Source: Flavobacteriales bacterium (GTDB taxonomy: Bacteria > Bacteroidota > Bacteroidia > Flavobacteriales_F > PHOS-HE28). From it: a DNA stretch of 33,008 nucleotides. The notes under the pieces are model-generated. The model ran no database searches and had not been told where the DNA came from. It was given only the letters and a program-made list of their open reading frames with translations. This document shows positions 1 to 7,779 of this stretch, one piece after another. The stretch is taken from positions 1 through 33,008 of the forward strand of contig JAEUSW010000345.1 in assembly GCA_016788285.1 (NCBI GenBank), given 5' to 3'. Position numbers and translations under genes: made by a program. The first letter of the stretch is position 1. Each line of letters opens with the position of its first letter.

Positions 1-2544
1 GGCTATTACCGTGTGCACCTGGACGACGAGGACGTGGACGCCGAGCTCACCGCCACCGCACGGGTGGGGGTGCATCGGTATACGTTCAACCGGATGGACA
101 CGGCCACCTTGGTGCTCGACCTTCGGCATAGGGATCAACTGCGGGAAGGCACCCTTGAGCGCGTCTCCGCGAACGAGTTCGTTGGCGAACGTCGCAGCAG
201 CTCCTGGGCCAAGGATCAGCGACTGTTCTTCTGCATCCGGACCAATGCGCCATCCATCGGCCAGATGACGGAATACACCACCGTCACTCCAGGAAGCGTG
301 GCGAAGAACCCTTGTGCCGCGCTCTTCTTCAAGCCTTCCGGCGAACCGCTCATCGTGAAGGTCGGCATCAGTGCGGTAAGCATTGAAGGCGCGCGGAAGA
401 ACCTCGAGGCCGAGGTGCCGCACTGGGACTTCGACCGGGTTCGGGCGGAGGCCGAGGCCGCCTGGAACGCCGAGCTCAACAAGGTGCAGGTGAAGGGCGG
501 CACGCCGGAGCAGCAGCGCATCTTCCACACGGCGATGTACCACAGCCTCATCGCCCCCTGCGTGTTCAATGACGTGGACGGGCGGTACCGCGGCATGGAC
601 GGCGCGGTGCACCAGGCCGACCACGACGTGTACACCATCTTCAGCCTGTGGGACACCTTCCGCGCCACGCACCCGCTGTTCACGCTGCTGGAGCCCGACC
701 GGGTGAACGACTACATCCGCACCTTCCTGCTGCATTACCAGCAGGGCGGCCGGCTGCCGGTGTGGGAGCTGTGGGGCAACGAGACGGACTGCATGATCGG
801 CTACCACAGCGCCAGCGTGATCGCCGACGCGCACAGCAAGGGCATCCGGGGCTACGACGCCCGCCTGGCGCTGGATGCGCTGGTCGCCGGGGCCATGCGC
901 GACGAGCCGGGGCTCAACGCCTACCGCACGCGCGGCTACATCAGCAGCGAGGACCAGGCGGAGAGCGTGAGCCGCACGCTGGAGTATGCGTACGACGACT
1001 GGTGCATCGCCCAACTGGCGGAGGCGCTGGGCGCGGACAGCCTGGCCGCGGTGTTCACCCGGCGCGCGTATTCGTGGCAGAACCTGCTGGACCCGGGGAC
1101 GCGGTTCTTCCGCGCCCGGCGCAACGGCGGCCTGATCGAGCCCTTCGACCCGTACGAGGTGAACTACCACTTCACCGAAGCGAACGCCTGGCAGTACGGG
1201 CTCTTCGTGCCGCACCATCTCGACGACCTGTTGCGCGACGCGGGCGGAAGCAGTGCCCTGCGCTCGCGGCTCGATGAGCTGTTCGATGCCGATGTCCGCA
1301 CCAGCGGCCGGGAGCAGGCGGACATCACGGGCCTCATCGGGCAGTACGCCCACGGCAACGAGCCCAGCCACCACATGGCCTACCTCTACGCCCGCACGGA
1401 CGCTCCGGCTTGGATGGACGGGCTGGTGGACCGCATCCGCACGGAGTTCTACCGCGACGCCCCGGACGGGCTGATCGGCAACGAGGACTGCGGCCAGATG
1501 AGCAGCTGGTACGTGCTCAGTGCCCTGGGCCTCTACCCCATCTGCCCGGGCTCGCCGCAGTACACCCTGGGCGTGCCGCTGTTCGACGAGGCCACGGTGC
1601 GGCTGGCCAATGGACGCAGCCTGCGCATCACCGCCGAGCGCACGCCTGCCGACGCGCGCTATGTGGAGGAGATCGGGTGGAACGGCCGCGAACCGGAGGT
1701 CTTCCGCCAGCTGAGCCACGACCGCCTGATGGACGGGGGAACCCTGGCCTTTCGCATGGGCCCACGTCCGGGCGGAGCCCCTTCCTTCCCCGATCCCGGG
1801 GAGCCTGAGCTCTCGCTGGAACGGCCGCTACCCGCGCCCTGGGTGAACGCCCCGTCGCGCACCTTCACGGACACGCTGGCCGTGCGTTTCGTACGCCCCA
1901 TTCCCTATGGTCAGGTGCAGTACCGTCTGAAGGAGGGCGGCGTGAAGCAATGGCGCGCCGCGCCGGAGGTGCTCACCCTGCGGCAGTCGGGCACCGTGCA
2001 GGCACGCCTGGTGCTGGGCGATCGCACCGGGCCGGTGGTGGAGGCGAGGTTCGAGCGGCTGGAGGTGCGCCACACGGTGAGCCTGCAGAGCACCTACGCC
2101 AACCAGTACGCGGCCGGTGGCGACCAGGCGCTCGTCGACGGACTGCGCGGCGGGGTGGAGTTCCGGTCCGGCGAATGGCAGGGCTTCCAGGGCCAGGACG
2201 TGCTCGCCACGGTCGACCTGGGCGGTGAGCGGCGCCTCGATGCCGTGAGCGTGGGCGTGCTGCAGGACCAGCGGTCATGGATCTGGTACCCTGAGTACGT
2301 GGATGTCGCCTGGAGCATCAACGGTCGGCAGTGGAGCAGCACGGTGCTGACGCATGCGGTGGCCCGCGATGCGGACGGTGCACAGCGCTTGGAGCTCCGC
2401 ACCGGTCCCATCGGCAAGCGCGCCCGCTACGTGAAGCTGATGGCGAAGAACGCCGGTCCCTGCCCGGACTGGCACCCCAGCAAGGGTGGGTCGAGCTGGA
2501 TCTTCCTGGACGAGATCGGCATCGAGGCGGGGCCGCCCCGCTAA
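1..2544 (+). CDS. GH92 family exo-alpha-mannosidase with C-terminal F5/8-type domain (5' partial)
   Basis: Calcium-dependent GH92 enzymes release terminal mannose from alpha-mannosides such as N-glycans and yeast mannan. The reading frame is open from base 1, so the N-terminus, including any signal peptide, lies outside the window; 847 residues remain. The end of the N-terminal beta-sandwich is followed by an (alpha/alpha)6 catalytic barrel from about residue 160. Diagnostic blocks are GNEPSHHMAYLY (about 452-463) and GNEDCGQMSSW (about 493-503), which carries the acidic residues that act as general base in this family. After residue about 610 comes a chitobiase-C-like beta domain, then a discoidin (F5/8 type C) fold from about 690 to the end, likely for carbohydrate binding. 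A GH2 beta-mannosidase and cutC lie nearby on the other strand. The family is clear; the exact linkage cleaved is not known. Confidence 0.95.
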   Translation, partial: GYYRVHLDDEDVDAELTATARVGVHRYTFNRMDTATLVLDLRHRDQLREGTLERVSANEFVGERRSSSWAKDQRLFFCIRTNAPSIGQMTEYTTVTPGSVAKNPCAALFFKPSGEPLIVKVGISAVSIEGARKNLEAEVPHWDFDRVRAEAEAAWNAELNKVQVKGGTPEQQRIFHTAMYHSLIAPCVFNDVDGRYRGMDGAVHQADHDVYTIFSLWDTFRATHPLFTLLEPDRVNDYIRTFLLHYQQGGRLPVWELWGNETDCMIGYHSASVIADAHSKGIRGYDARLALDALVAGAMRDEPGLNAYRTRGYISSEDQAESVSRTLEYAYDDWCIAQLAEALGADSLAAVFTRRAYSWQNLLDPGTRFFRARRNGGLIEPFDPYEVNYHFTEANAWQYGLFVPHHLDDLLRDAGGSSALRSRLDELFDADVRTSGREQADITGLIGQYAHGNEPSHHMAYLYARTDAPAWMDGLVDRIRTEFYRDAPDGLIGNEDCGQMSSWYVLSALGLYPICPGSPQYTLGVPLFDEATVRLANGRSLRITAERTPADARYVEEIGWNGREPEVFRQLSHDRLMDGGTLAFRMGPRPGGAPSFPDPGEPELSLERPLPAPWVNAPSRTFTDTLAVRFVRPIPYGQVQYRLKEGGVKQWRAAPEVLTLRQSGTVQARLVLGDRTGPVVEARFERLEVRHTVSLQSTYANQYAAGGDQALVDGLRGGVEFRSGEWQGFQGQDVLATVDLGGERRLDAVSVGVLQDQRSWIWYPEYVDVAWSINGRQWSSTVLTHAVARDADGAQRLELRTGPIGKRARYVKLMAKNAGPCPDWHPSKGGSSWIFLDEIGIEAGPPR

Positions 2545-2769: not shown

Positions 2770-4674
2770 TCAGCGCGCCACCTGCACGGCCTTGGTGCGC
2801 ACGAACTCGTCCGCGTGCACCTGGAGCAGGTAGTTGCCGTTCTGCAGGCCGGAGAGGTCGACCAGCACCGAGCGGTCGTTCACCGTGCGCACCGGCACAT
2901 CGAGCACCTGGCGTCCGGTGAGGTCGAACACCCGCACCACGGCGTTGGTCAATTGGTCCAGGCCGAGCTGGATGGTCACCGCGCCGGTGGTGGGGTTCGG
3001 GTAGAGCACGAAACCGGTGGCGTCGTTCTCATCGATGCCCACGAGGCCGCAACCCACATCCCACACCAGCGGGATCGTGGCCTGGCCATCGTCGCAGGAA
3101 CCGGTGTTGTTGGACTGGACCCGCAGGGTGAGCAGGTTGTCCGGGTTCTGGGAGCTGATGGAGAGACCGCTGAGGTCGCCGCCCAGGTTTCCGTTGAAGA
3201 GCACGCCGGCCAGGTCGTAGGCCCCGTTGTAGATCACCACCTTGTCCTCCACCAGCAGCTGCCCTTGCAGGAAGGTCATCGTGATCGGCAGGTTGGGGTC
3301 GCTCGACTGGTAGACGAACCAGGCGTCGTCGGTGTTCTCGTAGCAGTACGACGTGTTCACGTTGAGGCAGGCCGGGATCACGCAGCTGTCCTCATACGCC
3401 ACCACCGGGCCGCTGAAGATGCGGCAGAGGCTGTTGTCGCCGTTGAAGACCGACAGGTTGACGATCGTGTCCATGCCGATGGGGCCGAAGTTCTGGAGGC
3501 CGGTGCCGATGCCGAAGAGCGTGTCACCCGGAAGCACGAGATCCACGGTGGCGGCATCGCCGGTGGAGGTGACGTTCACCTCGATGCTGTACTCGCGGTG
3601 GATGCAATCGGGCACCACGGTGAAGGTCGCGGCGGGCACGTCGCAGTCCAGGCAGCCCACGGTCCAGTTCCACTCCCAGGCGGGGTTGGTGGAGCACTGC
3701 ACGGAACCGTCGGAGGTGATGGTCATGAAGATGTTGGGGCCCGTGGACACGATCGGAGGCAGCGTGCTCAGGTCGAAGGTGGGACCGTTGTGCTGCCAGA
3801 TGATCGGGCTTCCGTTGTTCGGGCCGTCATAGATGGTGAGCACGTCATAGACGGAGGACTCGATGGTGCCGGATGAGAAGACGATCGCCAGCGGATCGTT
3901 GTTGGAGCTCTGGTACCACCAGGTCTTGGTGTCGTTGGCCACGTAGCAGTAACTGTCGTTGTACTCGACTCCGCCACAATTGAGGATGACCGGGCAGTTC
4001 CCGGTGCTCTGGACGTTGAAGAAGCTCTGGCTGCAGGCCGCTTCGAACTCATGGCCCACCACGATGTCCACCAAGGCTCCGACAGTGAAGGGCCCGAGGG
4101 TGATGACACCGACACCCTGCCCGGGGATCTGCGGCTGAGGCGTGCCGTTGATGCTGTGGTCGATGTTGACGAACGAGCCATCACCGGTGCTGGCCACGTT
4201 CACATCGATGGTGAAGCTGTTGGTGTTGCAGTCGTCCAGCACGCTGTAGCTGGCCACCACCGGCGTGCAGTTCAGGAAGAGCTGCACGGTGGTGGTCACG
4301 CAGCTGGACTGCACGTTGCAGAGGTCGTCCACGTTCCAGTGGGGATACAGGTCACCGCCGGTCACGGCCGTGACGGTCACCGGGCTGTAGCCTTGGCCGA
4401 TGACGTTGCCGCCGGGAAAGTCCTCACGCACGGTGATGTAGCCGCCGGAGCTGAGGGTGAACTGGTAGGTCGCACCCGCGATGATGCCGGTGATCAGGGA
4501 GTACTCGGACTCGTAGCTGCATGTGCTGATGGTGGTCAGCGCGCCGAAGGGGTCGGGCGTGGCCTGGCCGAACTGGCTGGCGTTCTGGCAGTTCCCTTGT
4601 GCAAGGACGGCAGCGGTCGGCGCAAGGGCCGAAGCAAGGACGAGGACCTGGGTGATGTGTCGAAATGCGCTCAT
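2770..4674 (-). CDS. Secreted CUB-like repeat protein with type IX sorting domain
   Basis: This 634-residue protein begins with a signal peptide (MSAFRHITQVLVLASALAP then cleavage near VLAQ) and ends with an ~80-residue type A sorting domain: the FVLYPNPTTGAVTIQL block, then VRVFDLTGRQV and LQNGNYLLQV. Proteins of this class cross the outer membrane through the type IX system and are released or surface-anchored. The middle contains two copies of one module: an Ig-like strand set (VNVASTGDG and VNVTSTGDA) followed by a Cys-rich CUB-like domain (SYCYV...WWYQSS and SYCYE...WFVYQSS). An in-frame ATG at 4761 would add 29 residues without signal character, so 4674 is preferred. The biological target is unknown; adhesion or glycan binding is plausible. 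Confidence 0.88.
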   Translation of the reverse strand: MSAFRHITQVLVLASALAPTAAVLAQGNCQNASQFGQATPDPFGALTTISTCSYESEYSLITGIIAGATYQFTLSSGGYITVREDFPGGNVIGQGYSPVTVTAVTGGDLYPHWNVDDLCNVQSSCVTTTVQLFLNCTPVVASYSVLDDCNTNSFTIDVNVASTGDGSFVNIDHSINGTPQPQIPGQGVGVITLGPFTVGALVDIVVGHEFEAACSQSFFNVQSTGNCPVILNCGGVEYNDSYCYVANDTKTWWYQSSNNDPLAIVFSSGTIESSVYDVLTIYDGPNNGSPIIWQHNGPTFDLSTLPPIVSTGPNIFMTITSDGSVQCSTNPAWEWNWTVGCLDCDVPAATFTVVPDCIHREYSIEVNVTSTGDAATVDLVLPGDTLFGIGTGLQNFGPIGMDTIVNLSVFNGDNSLCRIFSGPVVAYEDSCVIPACLNVNTSYCYENTDDAWFVYQSSDPNLPITMTFLQGQLLVEDKVVIYNGAYDLAGVLFNGNLGGDLSGLSISSQNPDNLLTLRVQSNNTGSCDDGQATIPLVWDVGCGLVGIDENDATGFVLYPNPTTGAVTIQLGLDQLTNAVVRVFDLTGRQVLDVPVRTVNDRSVLVDLSGLQNGNYLLQVHADEFVRTKAVQVAR

Positions 4675-4707
4675 GCGTGGGGTCGTGTTGACCGGTTGGA
4701 TGGTTGC

Positions 4708-4715
4708 CGAAGGTA
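4708..4715 (-). promoter_or_regulatory. -7-type promoter element TACCTTCG for the type IX cargo gene
   Basis: The minus strand reads TACCTTCG, a one-base variant of the Bacteroidota -7 consensus TAnnTTTG. It lies 33 bases before the start codon at 4674. A TTG sits 21 bases upstream, compatible with the -33 element. Assignment is by pattern only. Confidence 0.5.
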
Positions 4716-4789
4716 GGGTTTGTCCGGTGGACCGCCCAAGTGGGAGGCGGGACGTTCGCACAGGGTCTGTTGAAAACCCGTGCAGGCGG

Positions 4790-6985
4790 CTAGGGCGTCC
4801 AGACCTCCCAACCGGGGGGCGCCCCTCCCCCCACCTCGATCCAGCGGTCCGCGCCGGGCAACAGGAAGAAGTCGTTGTCGCTCAAGGTGGCCCCAGGTGC
4901 GCGCAGATGCACGTTCGGGACGGGGACATCGGTGCTCACGCGGAACCGACCGGGCCTCGTCGGGTCCGGCGTCAGCTCGATGCGCGGGCGCTGCCAGTCC
5001 ATCGCCCCCCAGGGCGCCATCGTCAACGTCCGGTCGGCCAGCAGTTGGCCCCGTGGGTCCAGGACGCGGACATGGACCAGCGTCCTCTCCGGAGTTGACC
5101 CGGCCAGCACCTCGGGCACCGGCAGCCGGACCAGGTCGATCAAGCCATTGGCCGGAGAGAACCATAAGCTGTCGGATCGCAAGCAGCGTCCGTCGGTACT
5201 GAACACCTGTGTGATGGCCAGCAACAGGTCAGGATCCGCCTCCTCGTTCCACAGTGCGGCCACCACGGTCCCCTCCGCAGGCCGGAGATCGAGCACGAGC
5301 GGACGGTAGCTGCGGGCCACCTCGTACATCGCGGCCTTCCACGTACCGGTGTGGTCCACGGTGCTCCAGCTGGGCCCGGCCCACACGTCGTTGAGCTGCC
5401 AGAACAGGGTGCCCATGCAATGCGGTTGCGCCGTGAGGTGCGCCCAGATGGCCTGGCGGTAGGCCTCGGCCTGCGCCAGCTGGCTGAAACGGATCAGCTC
5501 GCCGAGCGTCCGCGGCCGCACGCCGAACTCGCGTTGGATGGCCTCCAGGATCGGCCGGTCGGTCTTGTAGCTCCGCTGTCGGGCGCCCAGCACCGGATCG
5601 CCGAGGTGCAAGTGCTCCGGATCGAGCTGCGTGGCGAGCGTAACGCTGTCGGGATAGCTCTGGAACCCGTACTCGCTCACGAACCGGCCCACGTTGCGGC
5701 CGAAGGAGGCGAAGCTGCTGTCCCCGTGCCAGACGCCCCAATAGTGCAGGTCGCCGTTCCGCAGGCCTTCGGCGTTGCCCCAGTTGCTCAGCGGAGATGT
5801 TGGCGTGTACGGCGCGCCGTCCAGAGAACGGACATGATCAAGGCCCCGAAGCAGATCGCCCTCGAACAGCGCGGTCATGCCATGGCGGACGCGCACCGAA
5901 TCGGCACCGTGGATCCGGTAGCGGTCCTGCCAGCCCCAGTTGTTCCAGGCCACCTCCAGTTCGTTGTTGCCGCACCACAGCGCCAGCCCCGGCCAGCGGC
6001 CCAGGCGCTCGGACTGGTCGGCGACCTCGGCCCGCACATTGTCCAGGAAGGCGCCTTCGGCCGGTGGGATGTTCGCGAACATCAGGTCCTGCCACACCAG
6101 GATCCCGGCCGTGTCACAGGCCGCGTAGAACGCGTCCGGGGGGTATACGCCGCCCGCCCACACGCGCACCATGTTCATGCCCGCCCGCTGCATGTCGCGC
6201 ACCCGGGCCACCCACAGGCTGTCCGGACCGGGGAACATGGACGGCGGCACCAGGTTGCAGCCCTTGATGAAAAGCGGGCGGCCGTTGCGCATGAAGCGGA
6301 ATGTCCGCCCGATGCTGTCCGGGCGCTGGTCCAAGGATACCTGCGGCGTTGAACGCGGGACCGGAACACCAGGCCGCTCCAAGGCCACTTCCTGCCAGAT
6401 GCCGAGGGTGACGAGGCGCGGGGAGAAGTCCCATCCGAACTGGTAAGCGGCCTTGCGCACGTAGGGGCTCGTCCCGCTCGGGTCGCTGTCGTGCGGGAGC
6501 TGGATGCCGTAGGCGGCGCGCAGCTGCGCCCCTTCACGCACCGGGCTTCGGAGCACCACGCGGAGGTCGTTGGCCCCTTCACGCAGAAGGCCATGCACCG
6601 GCCATTTCCAGGTCCGGAACATGTTGTCCGCACCGCCCAACCTGACGCCGTTGAGGCGGACGTCGGCGAACGTATCGATGCCTTTGAAGACCAACAACGC
6701 GTCGGCATGAGCGGCCCAATCGGCATCCGCCTCGAACCGCAGCGCGTATTCCCAATCGCGGAGCTCGACCCAGCGCACACTGTCGCTGTGGGCGTTCCGC
6801 AAGGGGTCGGGGATGCGACCGGTGCGGAGGAGGTCCTCGTGCACGGTCCCCGGCACCCGGGCGGGCCACCACCGCTCGGTGCCGAGCTCGCGATACCGCC
6901 AGCCGTCGTTGAGCGCCTTCCGCGCGGGCTGGGCGACGGCCGCCAAGGCCCAGAGGCCCGCGACGGTCAGTAGGGCGAGCCTCAT
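4790..6985 (-). CDS. GH2 family beta-mannosidase lacking the usual Ig-like middle domain
   Basis: Exo-beta-mannosidases of GH2 remove beta-1,4-mannose, for example from the chitobiose-linked core of N-glycans. The 731-residue protein has a signal peptide (MRLALLTVAGLWALAAVAQ), an N-terminal jelly-roll sugar-binding domain (about 25-203) and a TIM barrel (from about 228). The acid/base is E342 in CGNNE and the nucleophile is E438 in VSEYGFQSYP. A short C-terminal beta domain follows. Family members usually run to about 850 residues. Here the jelly roll (ending GIWQEVALE) joins within about 25 residues to the barrel entry (SIGRTFRFMRNGRPLFIKG), so the first Ig-like domain is missing with the frame kept. 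Its start overlaps the cutC stop by 4 bases, implying coupled translation. Confidence 0.92.
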   Translation of the reverse strand: MRLALLTVAGLWALAAVAQPARKALNDGWRYRELGTERWWPARVPGTVHEDLLRTGRIPDPLRNAHSDSVRWVELRDWEYALRFEADADWAAHADALLVFKGIDTFADVRLNGVRLGGADNMFRTWKWPVHGLLREGANDLRVVLRSPVREGAQLRAAYGIQLPHDSDPSGTSPYVRKAAYQFGWDFSPRLVTLGIWQEVALERPGVPVPRSTPQVSLDQRPDSIGRTFRFMRNGRPLFIKGCNLVPPSMFPGPDSLWVARVRDMQRAGMNMVRVWAGGVYPPDAFYAACDTAGILVWQDLMFANIPPAEGAFLDNVRAEVADQSERLGRWPGLALWCGNNELEVAWNNWGWQDRYRIHGADSVRVRHGMTALFEGDLLRGLDHVRSLDGAPYTPTSPLSNWGNAEGLRNGDLHYWGVWHGDSSFASFGRNVGRFVSEYGFQSYPDSVTLATQLDPEHLHLGDPVLGARQRSYKTDRPILEAIQREFGVRPRTLGELIRFSQLAQAEAYRQAIWAHLTAQPHCMGTLFWQLNDVWAGPSWSTVDHTGTWKAAMYEVARSYRPLVLDLRPAEGTVVAALWNEEADPDLLLAITQVFSTDGRCLRSDSLWFSPANGLIDLVRLPVPEVLAGSTPERTLVHVRVLDPRGQLLADRTLTMAPWGAMDWQRPRIELTPDPTRPGRFRVSTDVPVPNVHLRAPGATLSDNDFFLLPGADRWIEVGGGAPPGWEVWTP

Positions 6986-7719
6986 CGCAGACGGGCTTTC
7001 GTCAGCGCGTTGAGCACCCCCTCGATCTTGGCCTCGTCCGGCACGGTCTCGAAGCTGAGCCCGCGATGGGCGGAGCTCATGCTCACCTCATGGGGTTCGG
7101 GCGGCAGTTTCCGCTGGGCGGCGAAGTGCACCTCGGCGACCCCCGTGCGCTCCACGAGCTCCACCACGTTCTGTGGGGTGATGCCTCCGGCCGCGGCCAC
7201 GCGCAGGCGGCCTTGTGCTCCTTCCACCATGGCCTTGATCGTGAGGGCGCCATCGATCGCCAGGGTGCGGCCGCCGCTGGTGAGCACGCGGTGCACCCCT
7301 TCGGAGAGGCAGGTGGCGAAGGCCGCGCCCGGGTCGGGGCTGCGGTCGATGGCCCGATGGAAGGTGATCTCCGCCTCCGGAGCGGCCATGCGGACGGCCC
7401 GGATGAAGGGGATGTCCGGTCCACCCTCCTCGTCCAGGGCGCCGATCACCAGACCCGGTGTGCTCATGCCGATGAGCAGGGCATCGCGCAACATGGCCTG
7501 GCGTTCGTTCATGGTGTAGGTGAACCCTCCCGGCGTGGCCCGGATGAGGACCCGCATGGGGATCCCGAGCTCCTCCTTCACGGCGTTCACCAGTCCGTAG
7601 CTGGGGGTCACCCCACCGCAATCCGGCCAGGTGCACAGTTCCACGCTGTCCACCCCTGCACGTGCGGCGGCTTGGGCTTCGGCGAGGCCGGACACGCAGA
7701 CCTCCACGTGGACCTTCAT
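6982..7719 (-). CDS. cutC: CutC family TIM-barrel protein
   Basis: The protein is 245 residues, the normal CutC length, and starts MKVHVEVCVSGLAEAQAA. Family blocks include ELCTWPDCGGVTPSYG, MRVLIRATPGGFTYT, EITFHRAIDRSPDP, VLTSGGRTLAIDGA and AAAGGITPQNV. The family is named for copper homeostasis in E. coli, but that phenotype was later attributed to a small RNA (MicL) encoded at the cutC locus, so the enzyme's function is unsettled. Here it overlaps the beta-mannosidase gene by 4 bases (ATGA) and is the first gene of that pair, which suggests a role in glycan breakdown rather than copper. An upstream in-frame ATG at 7773 would add 18 residues outside family homology. There is no signal peptide, so it is probably cytoplasmic. 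Confidence 0.93.
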   Translation of the reverse strand: MKVHVEVCVSGLAEAQAAARAGVDSVELCTWPDCGGVTPSYGLVNAVKEELGIPMRVLIRATPGGFTYTMNERQAMLRDALLIGMSTPGLVIGALDEEGGPDIPFIRAVRMAAPEAEITFHRAIDRSPDPGAAFATCLSEGVHRVLTSGGRTLAIDGALTIKAMVEGAQGRLRVAAAGGITPQNVVELVERTGVAEVHFAAQRKLPPEPHEVSMSSAHRGLSFETVPDEAKIEGVLNALTKARLR

Positions 7720-7751: not shown

Positions 7752-7779
7752 CCATCACCACCCTGGCGTACAAGGGCCG

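Follow-up and report, generated by a model that had tools for sequence, protein, structure and literature searches.

Genomic linkage of CutC to glycosylasparaginase in Bacteroidota points to a probable role in N-glycan and N-acetylglucosamine salvage

Among the closest described counterparts of the locus analyzed here is the nix N-glycan cluster of Xanthomonas, in which cutC (XAC3091) accompanies genes for a beta-mannosidase, an alpha-1,2-mannosidase and a beta-hexosaminidase and, in the part of that paper available to us, is read as a copper resistance gene (PMC6718126); this cutC neighborhood is thus already in print. In the available part of another report, CutC and the asparaginase XAC3092, which is, judged by locus number, the next gene after XAC3091, are named among the predicted partners of VirK (PMC5700972). 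The alf-2 pathway of Lactobacillus casei, which processes fucosyl-N-acetylglucosaminyl-asparagine (Fuc-GlcNAc-Asn), combines glycosylasparaginase (AGA) and a GlcNAc kinase in one cluster; its main text, as far as available, names no CutC, and the AGA is cytoplasmic there (PMC6960285). The stretch of DNA considered here, a 33,008-nucleotide contig of a Flavobacteriales bacterium (JAEUSW010000345.1; hereafter, the window), carries a cutC gene that overlaps a gene of glycoside hydrolase family 2 (GH2), with a GH92 gene nearby (Table 1). The combination of cutC with mannosidase genes is common to the window and the nix cluster, but the gene order differs and, of the set AGA, GH2, GH92 and cutC, the window has all but AGA. 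From genomic linkage, co-occurrence, fold and conserved residues, we infer that CutC is probably an enzyme with a triosephosphate isomerase (TIM)-barrel fold that serves the salvage of N-glycans and GlcNAc in the cytoplasm, and not primarily a copper protein.

The evidence that carries this assignment comes from the neighborhoods of cutC across Bacteroidota. CutC was found in 124 of 395 genomes of this phylum (128 match rows); 120 rows were fetched, leaving out that of the window, a broken copy present as two fragments (G037), a match below the cut-off (G337) and the rows of G293, G325, G324 and G343, and the CutC open reading frame (ORF) was recognized in 118 of the 120. Blind clustering of the neighboring ORFs yields one outstanding family, present in 57 loci from 32 genera at a median distance of 53 bases from cutC, and its representative matches an Elizabethkingia-type glycosylasparaginase (E 7e-120), that is, AGA, an amide hydrolase acting at the GlcNAc-Asn bond. 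With each genus represented by one locus, the gene upstream of cutC belongs to Asparaginase_2 (AGA) in 29 of 65 cases, every other family being found there at most twice and GH20 in a single genus; downstream (n = 64), Metallophos is found in five loci, GH2-type domains in three to four and GH92 in one. AGA lies within 1 kb of cutC in 52 of the 118 fetched loci, representing 28 of 66 genera and 9 of 22 families. Overall, 57 of 120 cutC loci (the 118 fetched ones, the window and its own copy, L001) contain AGA, which is within 300 bp of cutC in 48 of them, with both genes on the same strand in 41 of these 48. AGA was found in none of 20 control regions taken from these genomes at a distance of 150 kb, and Asparaginase_2 does not appear among the families listed for 60 control ORFs, where all families with more than one member are listed.

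The association extends to gene content. The Pfam family PF01112 was rejected as a marker of co-occurrence, matching 288 of the 395 genomes, because it is too broad and also includes isoaspartyl peptidases. With a profile derived from the cutC-linked AGA (E up to 1e-60), the linked-copy origin of which is a bias, AGA is detected in 119 of the 124 Bacteroidota genomes with cutC vs 73 of the 271 without it, with odds ratios of 36 to 65 across four profile cut-offs and a Fisher P of about 1e-42 overall, phylogeny being ignored. The difference is seen both in GH92-positive genomes (79 of 84 with cutC vs 19 of 56 without) and in GH92-negative ones (40 of 40 vs 54 of 215), and all five cutC genomes that lack AGA have GH92. 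These genomes are not independent, many of them coming from a few genera, a structure that the Fisher tests do not take into account, so that shared ancestry or passive hitch-hiking could in principle produce the linkage without any functional tie. This explanation appears very unlikely, however, given that the linkage persists with one locus per genus, that within a single genus AGA is present in 17 of 17 genomes with cutC and in 0 of 6 without it, that two distinct clades of CutC in a single genus each show linkage, and that it recurs in other phyla.

The earlier note on this DNA, made from the sequence of the window, placed CutC in the breakdown of N-glycans or mannose oligosaccharides and suggested counting the neighbors of cutC across the phylum. 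The counts given above reveal strong co-occurrence with glycan genes and thus uphold the glycan link; the mannose part of the proposal did not stand, because AGA is the dominant partner and immediate glycosidase neighbors are few, so that the theme appears to be salvage of GlcNAc and the N-glycan core. The same evidence bears on the possibility that CutC handles copper, in keeping with its name, and that its glycan neighbors are incidental. The family name and annotation favor such a role, as does the metal (zinc) function suggested for mycoplasma CutC, although that protein lacks one essential cysteine according to the available part of the same source (PMC4993169). The linkage and genome co-occurrence with AGA count against it, and no copper family is present among the 25 most frequent neighbor families listed on either side of cutC. 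Furthermore, the small RNA MicL has been placed in the 3' region of E. coli cutC (PMC8216713, as far as available), which agrees with the premise of the earlier note that the copper role in E. coli belongs to a small RNA of that locus. On balance, a copper function with incidental neighbors is quite unlikely.

In the window, the overlap of 4 bases between cutC and the GH2 gene, with ATGA common to both, and the location of GH92 on the opposite strand, about 2.2 kb from the pair, were described correctly in the earlier note, the exact gap between GH92 and GH2 being 2,245 bases. This gap contains a gene for a secreted protein sorted by the type IX secretion system (T9SS), the relation of which to the glycan genes is not evident. 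The GH92 frame is open at the start of the window, which is also the start of the contig, so that this gene is incomplete; the open frame of cutC extends beyond its ATG start to a TTG at 7773. The source assembly consists of 360 contigs, and an AGA-type gene is located on another contig than cutC.

Table 1. Coordinates and contents of the cutC loci discussed in the text
Feature	Source	Positions	Strand	Details
cutC (PF03932)	window	6982-7719	minus	245 amino acids; ATG start; no evident signal peptide; type-G variant
GH2 beta-mannosidase gene	window	4790-6985	minus	731 amino acids; signal-peptide-like N-terminal segment
cutC/GH2 stop/start overlap	window	6982-6985	minus	ATGA; 4 bases
GH92 alpha-mannosidase gene	window	1-2544	plus	PF07971 and PF17678; 5' end missing; convergent neighbor outside the operon
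T9SS-sorted secreted protein gene	window	2770-4761	minus	PF18962; between GH2 and GH92
Candidate salvage run	Chitinophaga L190	7874-16971		ROK kinase, AGA, CutC, phosphodiesterase, exo/endo phosphatase, GH20, fused NagB-PIG-L
cutC with PNGase F following	Persicobacter L280	3998-5987
cutC with PNGase F following	Persicobacter L282	3995-6007
L-asparaginase II (PF06089) upstream of cutC	Embleya L276	2878-3843
L-asparaginase II (PF06089) upstream of cutC	Embleya L279	2763-3836
cutC	Hymenobacter plasmid records (two)			near AGA with GH92 or GH2
cutC	Paracoccus plasmid record			near ROK kinase
cutC	Qingshengfaniella plasmid record			near ROK kinase and MurQ
cutC	Sinorhizobium plasmid record			near ROK kinase and nagA; amidase ahead of the kinase
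cutC	Alkalihalophilus plasmid record			near ROK kinase and fucosidase
cutC	Sphingomonas plasmid record			near nagA and SIS
cutC	Kozakia and Loktanella plasmid records			near GH20 and nagB
cutC	Pseudoalteromonas plasmid records (two)			near BadF-type kinase

Within the genus of the window, CutC is present in 38 of 45 genomes. Among 30 congeneric loci, 22, including the window's own copy, have the cutC-GH2 arrangement (type G), 7 have AGA-cutC (type A) and 1 could not be assigned because of its short length; AGA and GH2 do not occur together in any of the 30 short loci. The ATGA overlap is retained in 21 of the 22 cutC-GH2 loci, the remaining one overlapping by a single base, which indicates more than a chance arrangement. 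In a maximum-likelihood tree of the CutC sequences of the genus together with 31 other Bacteroidota CutC, types A and G form separate groups that are not sisters, each with support of 100/100. Two CutC lineages coexist in the genus, one consistently paired with AGA and the other with GH2, both of them N-glycan genes.

The GH2 protein of the window has as its best match in the PDB the beta-mannosidase 2je8 (E 1.7e-118), presumably from Bacteroides thetaiotaomicron and its closest solved relative, and the 11 best PDB sequence matches are all named beta-mannosidase; in Pfam, it matches PF22666 only. The WCGNNE and SEYGF stretches, which we take to hold the two catalytic glutamates of GH2, are both present and aligned, but a domain of about 110 amino acids between the jelly roll and the barrel (residues about 194-314 of 2je8) is missing. 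The same gap is found in three more of the 22 type-G loci (L163, L167 and L172), so that it is not a flaw of the window assembly; the other 18 show no such gap (for one of these, L173, without a junction sequence). Judged by its sequence, then, the window protein is a putative natural minimal beta-mannosidase that keeps both glutamate stretches without the additional domain. An AlphaFold model of this protein was poor (predicted local distance difference test score, pLDDT, 63) and was not used.

The CutC protein of the window is readily assigned to its family, scoring 164.3 bits against PF03932 (cut-off 23.3) over positions 2-200 of 202. It falls below the cut-off of the NCBIfam equivalog PRK11572 (141 vs 311 bits), as does the canonical, AGA-linked CutC of locus L002 (228 bits). 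The best PDB sequence match is human CutC (3iwp, E 2e-37), and the predicted model (pLDDT 95.3) shares the TIM-barrel fold with six solved CutC entries (Z 29-35), the highest value, Z 35.0, coming with a root-mean-square deviation of 1.9 across 242 residues; the solved PF03932 proteins with this fold also include those of Shigella (1twd), Bacillus anthracis (4r9x) and Streptococcus agalactiae (2bdq). In a 32-row alignment, the window protein retains the E, H, D, S and H residues of the invariant columns, and the conserved polar residues of CutC are located mostly at strand ends. The next-nearest folds are mostly sugar-phosphate TIM barrels (Z 18-21, a resemblance of fold only), including MfnB (Z 20.9) and, near 18, hexulose-phosphate synthase, KGPDC, DERA and TrpF, the substrate of the last being itself a glycosylamine.

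Compared with other CutC proteins, that of the window is part of a divergent clade in which GH2 takes the place of AGA as the coupled gene and a pocket motif is changed. This motif, RPRxGDF, which is our own reading of the CutC alignment and not a published membership rule, reads RATPGGF in the window; R62 and D65 are lost in type G, the motif being altered in 21 of the 22 loci, with L164, which retains RPRAGDF, as the exception, whereas the remaining invariant residues of the pocket are preserved in this type. In the phylum sample, the RPRxGD motif does not tell CutC proteins with a linked AGA from those without one, the canonical form being found in 44 of each kind.

Linkage between cutC and AGA is not confined to Bacteroidota. 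In Pseudomonadota, the phylum to which a Lysobacter locus belongs, 160 genomes were compared: CutC is present in 15, true AGA (E up to 1e-100) in 7 and both in 5, so that AGA is found in 5 of 15 genomes with cutC vs 2 of 145 without it, and in all five genomes with both, AGA is within 2 kb of cutC. With a Bacteroidota CutC as query, AGA is also present in 55 of the 80 nearest named loci from GTDB, a set that leans by design to Pedobacter and its kin, and 8 of 13 genomes from the named loci that look non-Bacteroidota or are unassigned hold a match to the AGA profile. CutC matches 66 plasmid records, of which 40 were listed; 27 of these were examined, the other 13 being enterobacterial (12) or, in one case, an unannotated record from Phocaeicola. 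Thirteen of the 27 come with gene tables, and in 11 of these, amino-sugar or N-glycan genes are located within 4 kb of cutC (Table 1); no such genes were found within this distance in the Burkholderia glumae and Entomospira records. Seven of the 14 unannotated records match profiles that were seeded mostly from the annotated ones. In two Persicobacter records, PNGase F starts 8 or 13 bases after cutC, and a SusD-like gene is found upstream (Pfam-scanned in L280). No PNGase F was found in viral contigs.

Several other arrangements were observed around cutC. The Chitinophaga run in Table 1 is, from its gene content, a candidate for a full GlcNAc-Asn salvage operon. In Pedobacter (L179-L184) and related loci, AGA-cutC is repeatedly preceded by a gene for about 363 amino acids, aminotransferase-like by eye, and another for about 267. 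The L-asparaginase II that directly precedes cutC in two Embleya records is perhaps a stand-in for AGA in Actinomycetes. Three alphaproteobacterial plasmid records (L283, L284 and L287) share the order GH20, M81 metallopeptidase, a gene for about 350-400 amino acids, and cutC; in L284, the third gene encodes a major facilitator superfamily transporter.

As to the reaction, the favored one, advanced here tentatively, is a hydrolysis in which 1-amino-GlcNAc, or the corresponding 6-phosphate, would lose ammonia and give GlcNAc. PNGase leaves an amine at the reducing GlcNAc, and AGA yields 1-amino-GlcNAc together with aspartate, so that both routes end in the same glycosylamine. In the available part of a study of lactobacilli, this product of AGA is described as one that cannot be metabolized before acid pH has caused it to decay (PMC6960285). 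A cytoplasmic CutC, made together with AGA in most of the linked Bacteroidota, would clear the glycosylamine at neutral pH and thereby end N-glycan breakdown, an activity that would tie together AGA, PNGase F, the kinases and hexosaminidase. In the lineage of the window, the diverged CutC clade would have its translation coupled to that of a beta-mannosidase which is exported and trims the Man-GlcNAc (mannose-GlcNAc) core. A broader version, in which bacteria and animals alike use CutC as the missing glycosylamine hydrolase, the copper name is wrong for the entire family, and the clade of the window took on a related step tied to beta-mannosidase, is likewise conceivable but doubtful.

The chief competitor concerns the reaction and shares the pathway: CutC might act in GlcNAc salvage on another compound, as an isomerase, an epimerase, an enzyme that interconverts anomers, or one that hydrolyzes some other derivative of GlcNAc or GlcNAc-6-phosphate. 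This possibility has roughly an even chance of being correct. It fits most of the facts that glycosylamine hydrolysis fits, the nearest non-CutC folds being phosphosugar TIM barrels, and in several Pseudomonadota records, cutC adjoins ROK or BadF-type kinases, nagA, SIS, nagB and GH20 without AGA. By itself, however, it leaves unexplained why AGA is the commonest partner in Bacteroidota, as well as the pairing with PNGase F.

Cellular location bears on both the salvage role and a further alternative. A twin-arginine translocation (Tat)-type leader is present in 52 of 55 cutC-linked AGA, and the GH2 protein has a signal-like start, whereas none is evident in CutC, so that CutC would act on an imported product. 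With such a leader, AGA would fold in the same compartment as CutC, the cytoplasm, and given that AGA is self-processing (PMC6960285, available part) and that cutC is adjacent to it and co-directional, CutC could assist AGA (in the window, GH2) in maturation, sensing or regulation instead of being a pathway enzyme. Such a partnership is very unlikely, because 10 of the 15 Pseudomonadota genomes with cutC have no AGA, cutC also pairs with the unrelated GH2, PNGase F and kinases, and AGA occurs without cutC in the 73 Bacteroidota genomes counted above.

A role of CutC as an enzyme of N-glycan and GlcNAc salvage has to be weighed against several observations. With AGA exported and CutC not, the product of AGA would need import. 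Those ten Pseudomonadota genomes count here as well, as do several Bacteroidota families (f18, f20 and f31) in which no AGA adjoins cutC, and E. coli, which has CutC and a match to PF01112, a family broader than AGA. Three other plasmid records with PNGase F have no cutC nearby, and PNGase F was not found in the genome of the window itself, where the same search produced no match in any control either. Finally, the loss of R62 and D65 implies that the substrate of the type-G clade may differ.

In the Creative Commons-licensed literature in PMC, no printed proposal of CutC in N-glycan or GlcNAc breakdown was found, there were no matches pairing CutC with glycosylasparaginase or aspartylglucosaminidase, nor any that joined it, as a copper homeostasis protein, to polysaccharide utilization, and no paper among the matches listed had a glycosylamine hydrolase enzyme in its title; within these searches, a functional tie between AGA and CutC had no printed precedent. 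CutC is distributed from bacteria to humans, and the structure of the human protein has been solved. If the linkage reflects function, the CutC family shifts from copper biology to the last steps of glycoprotein recycling, with its partner enzymes named in many genera. The glycosylamine reaction, if correct, would touch on an acknowledged gap in this process, the removal of the amine that is left on GlcNAc once asparagine has been cut away.

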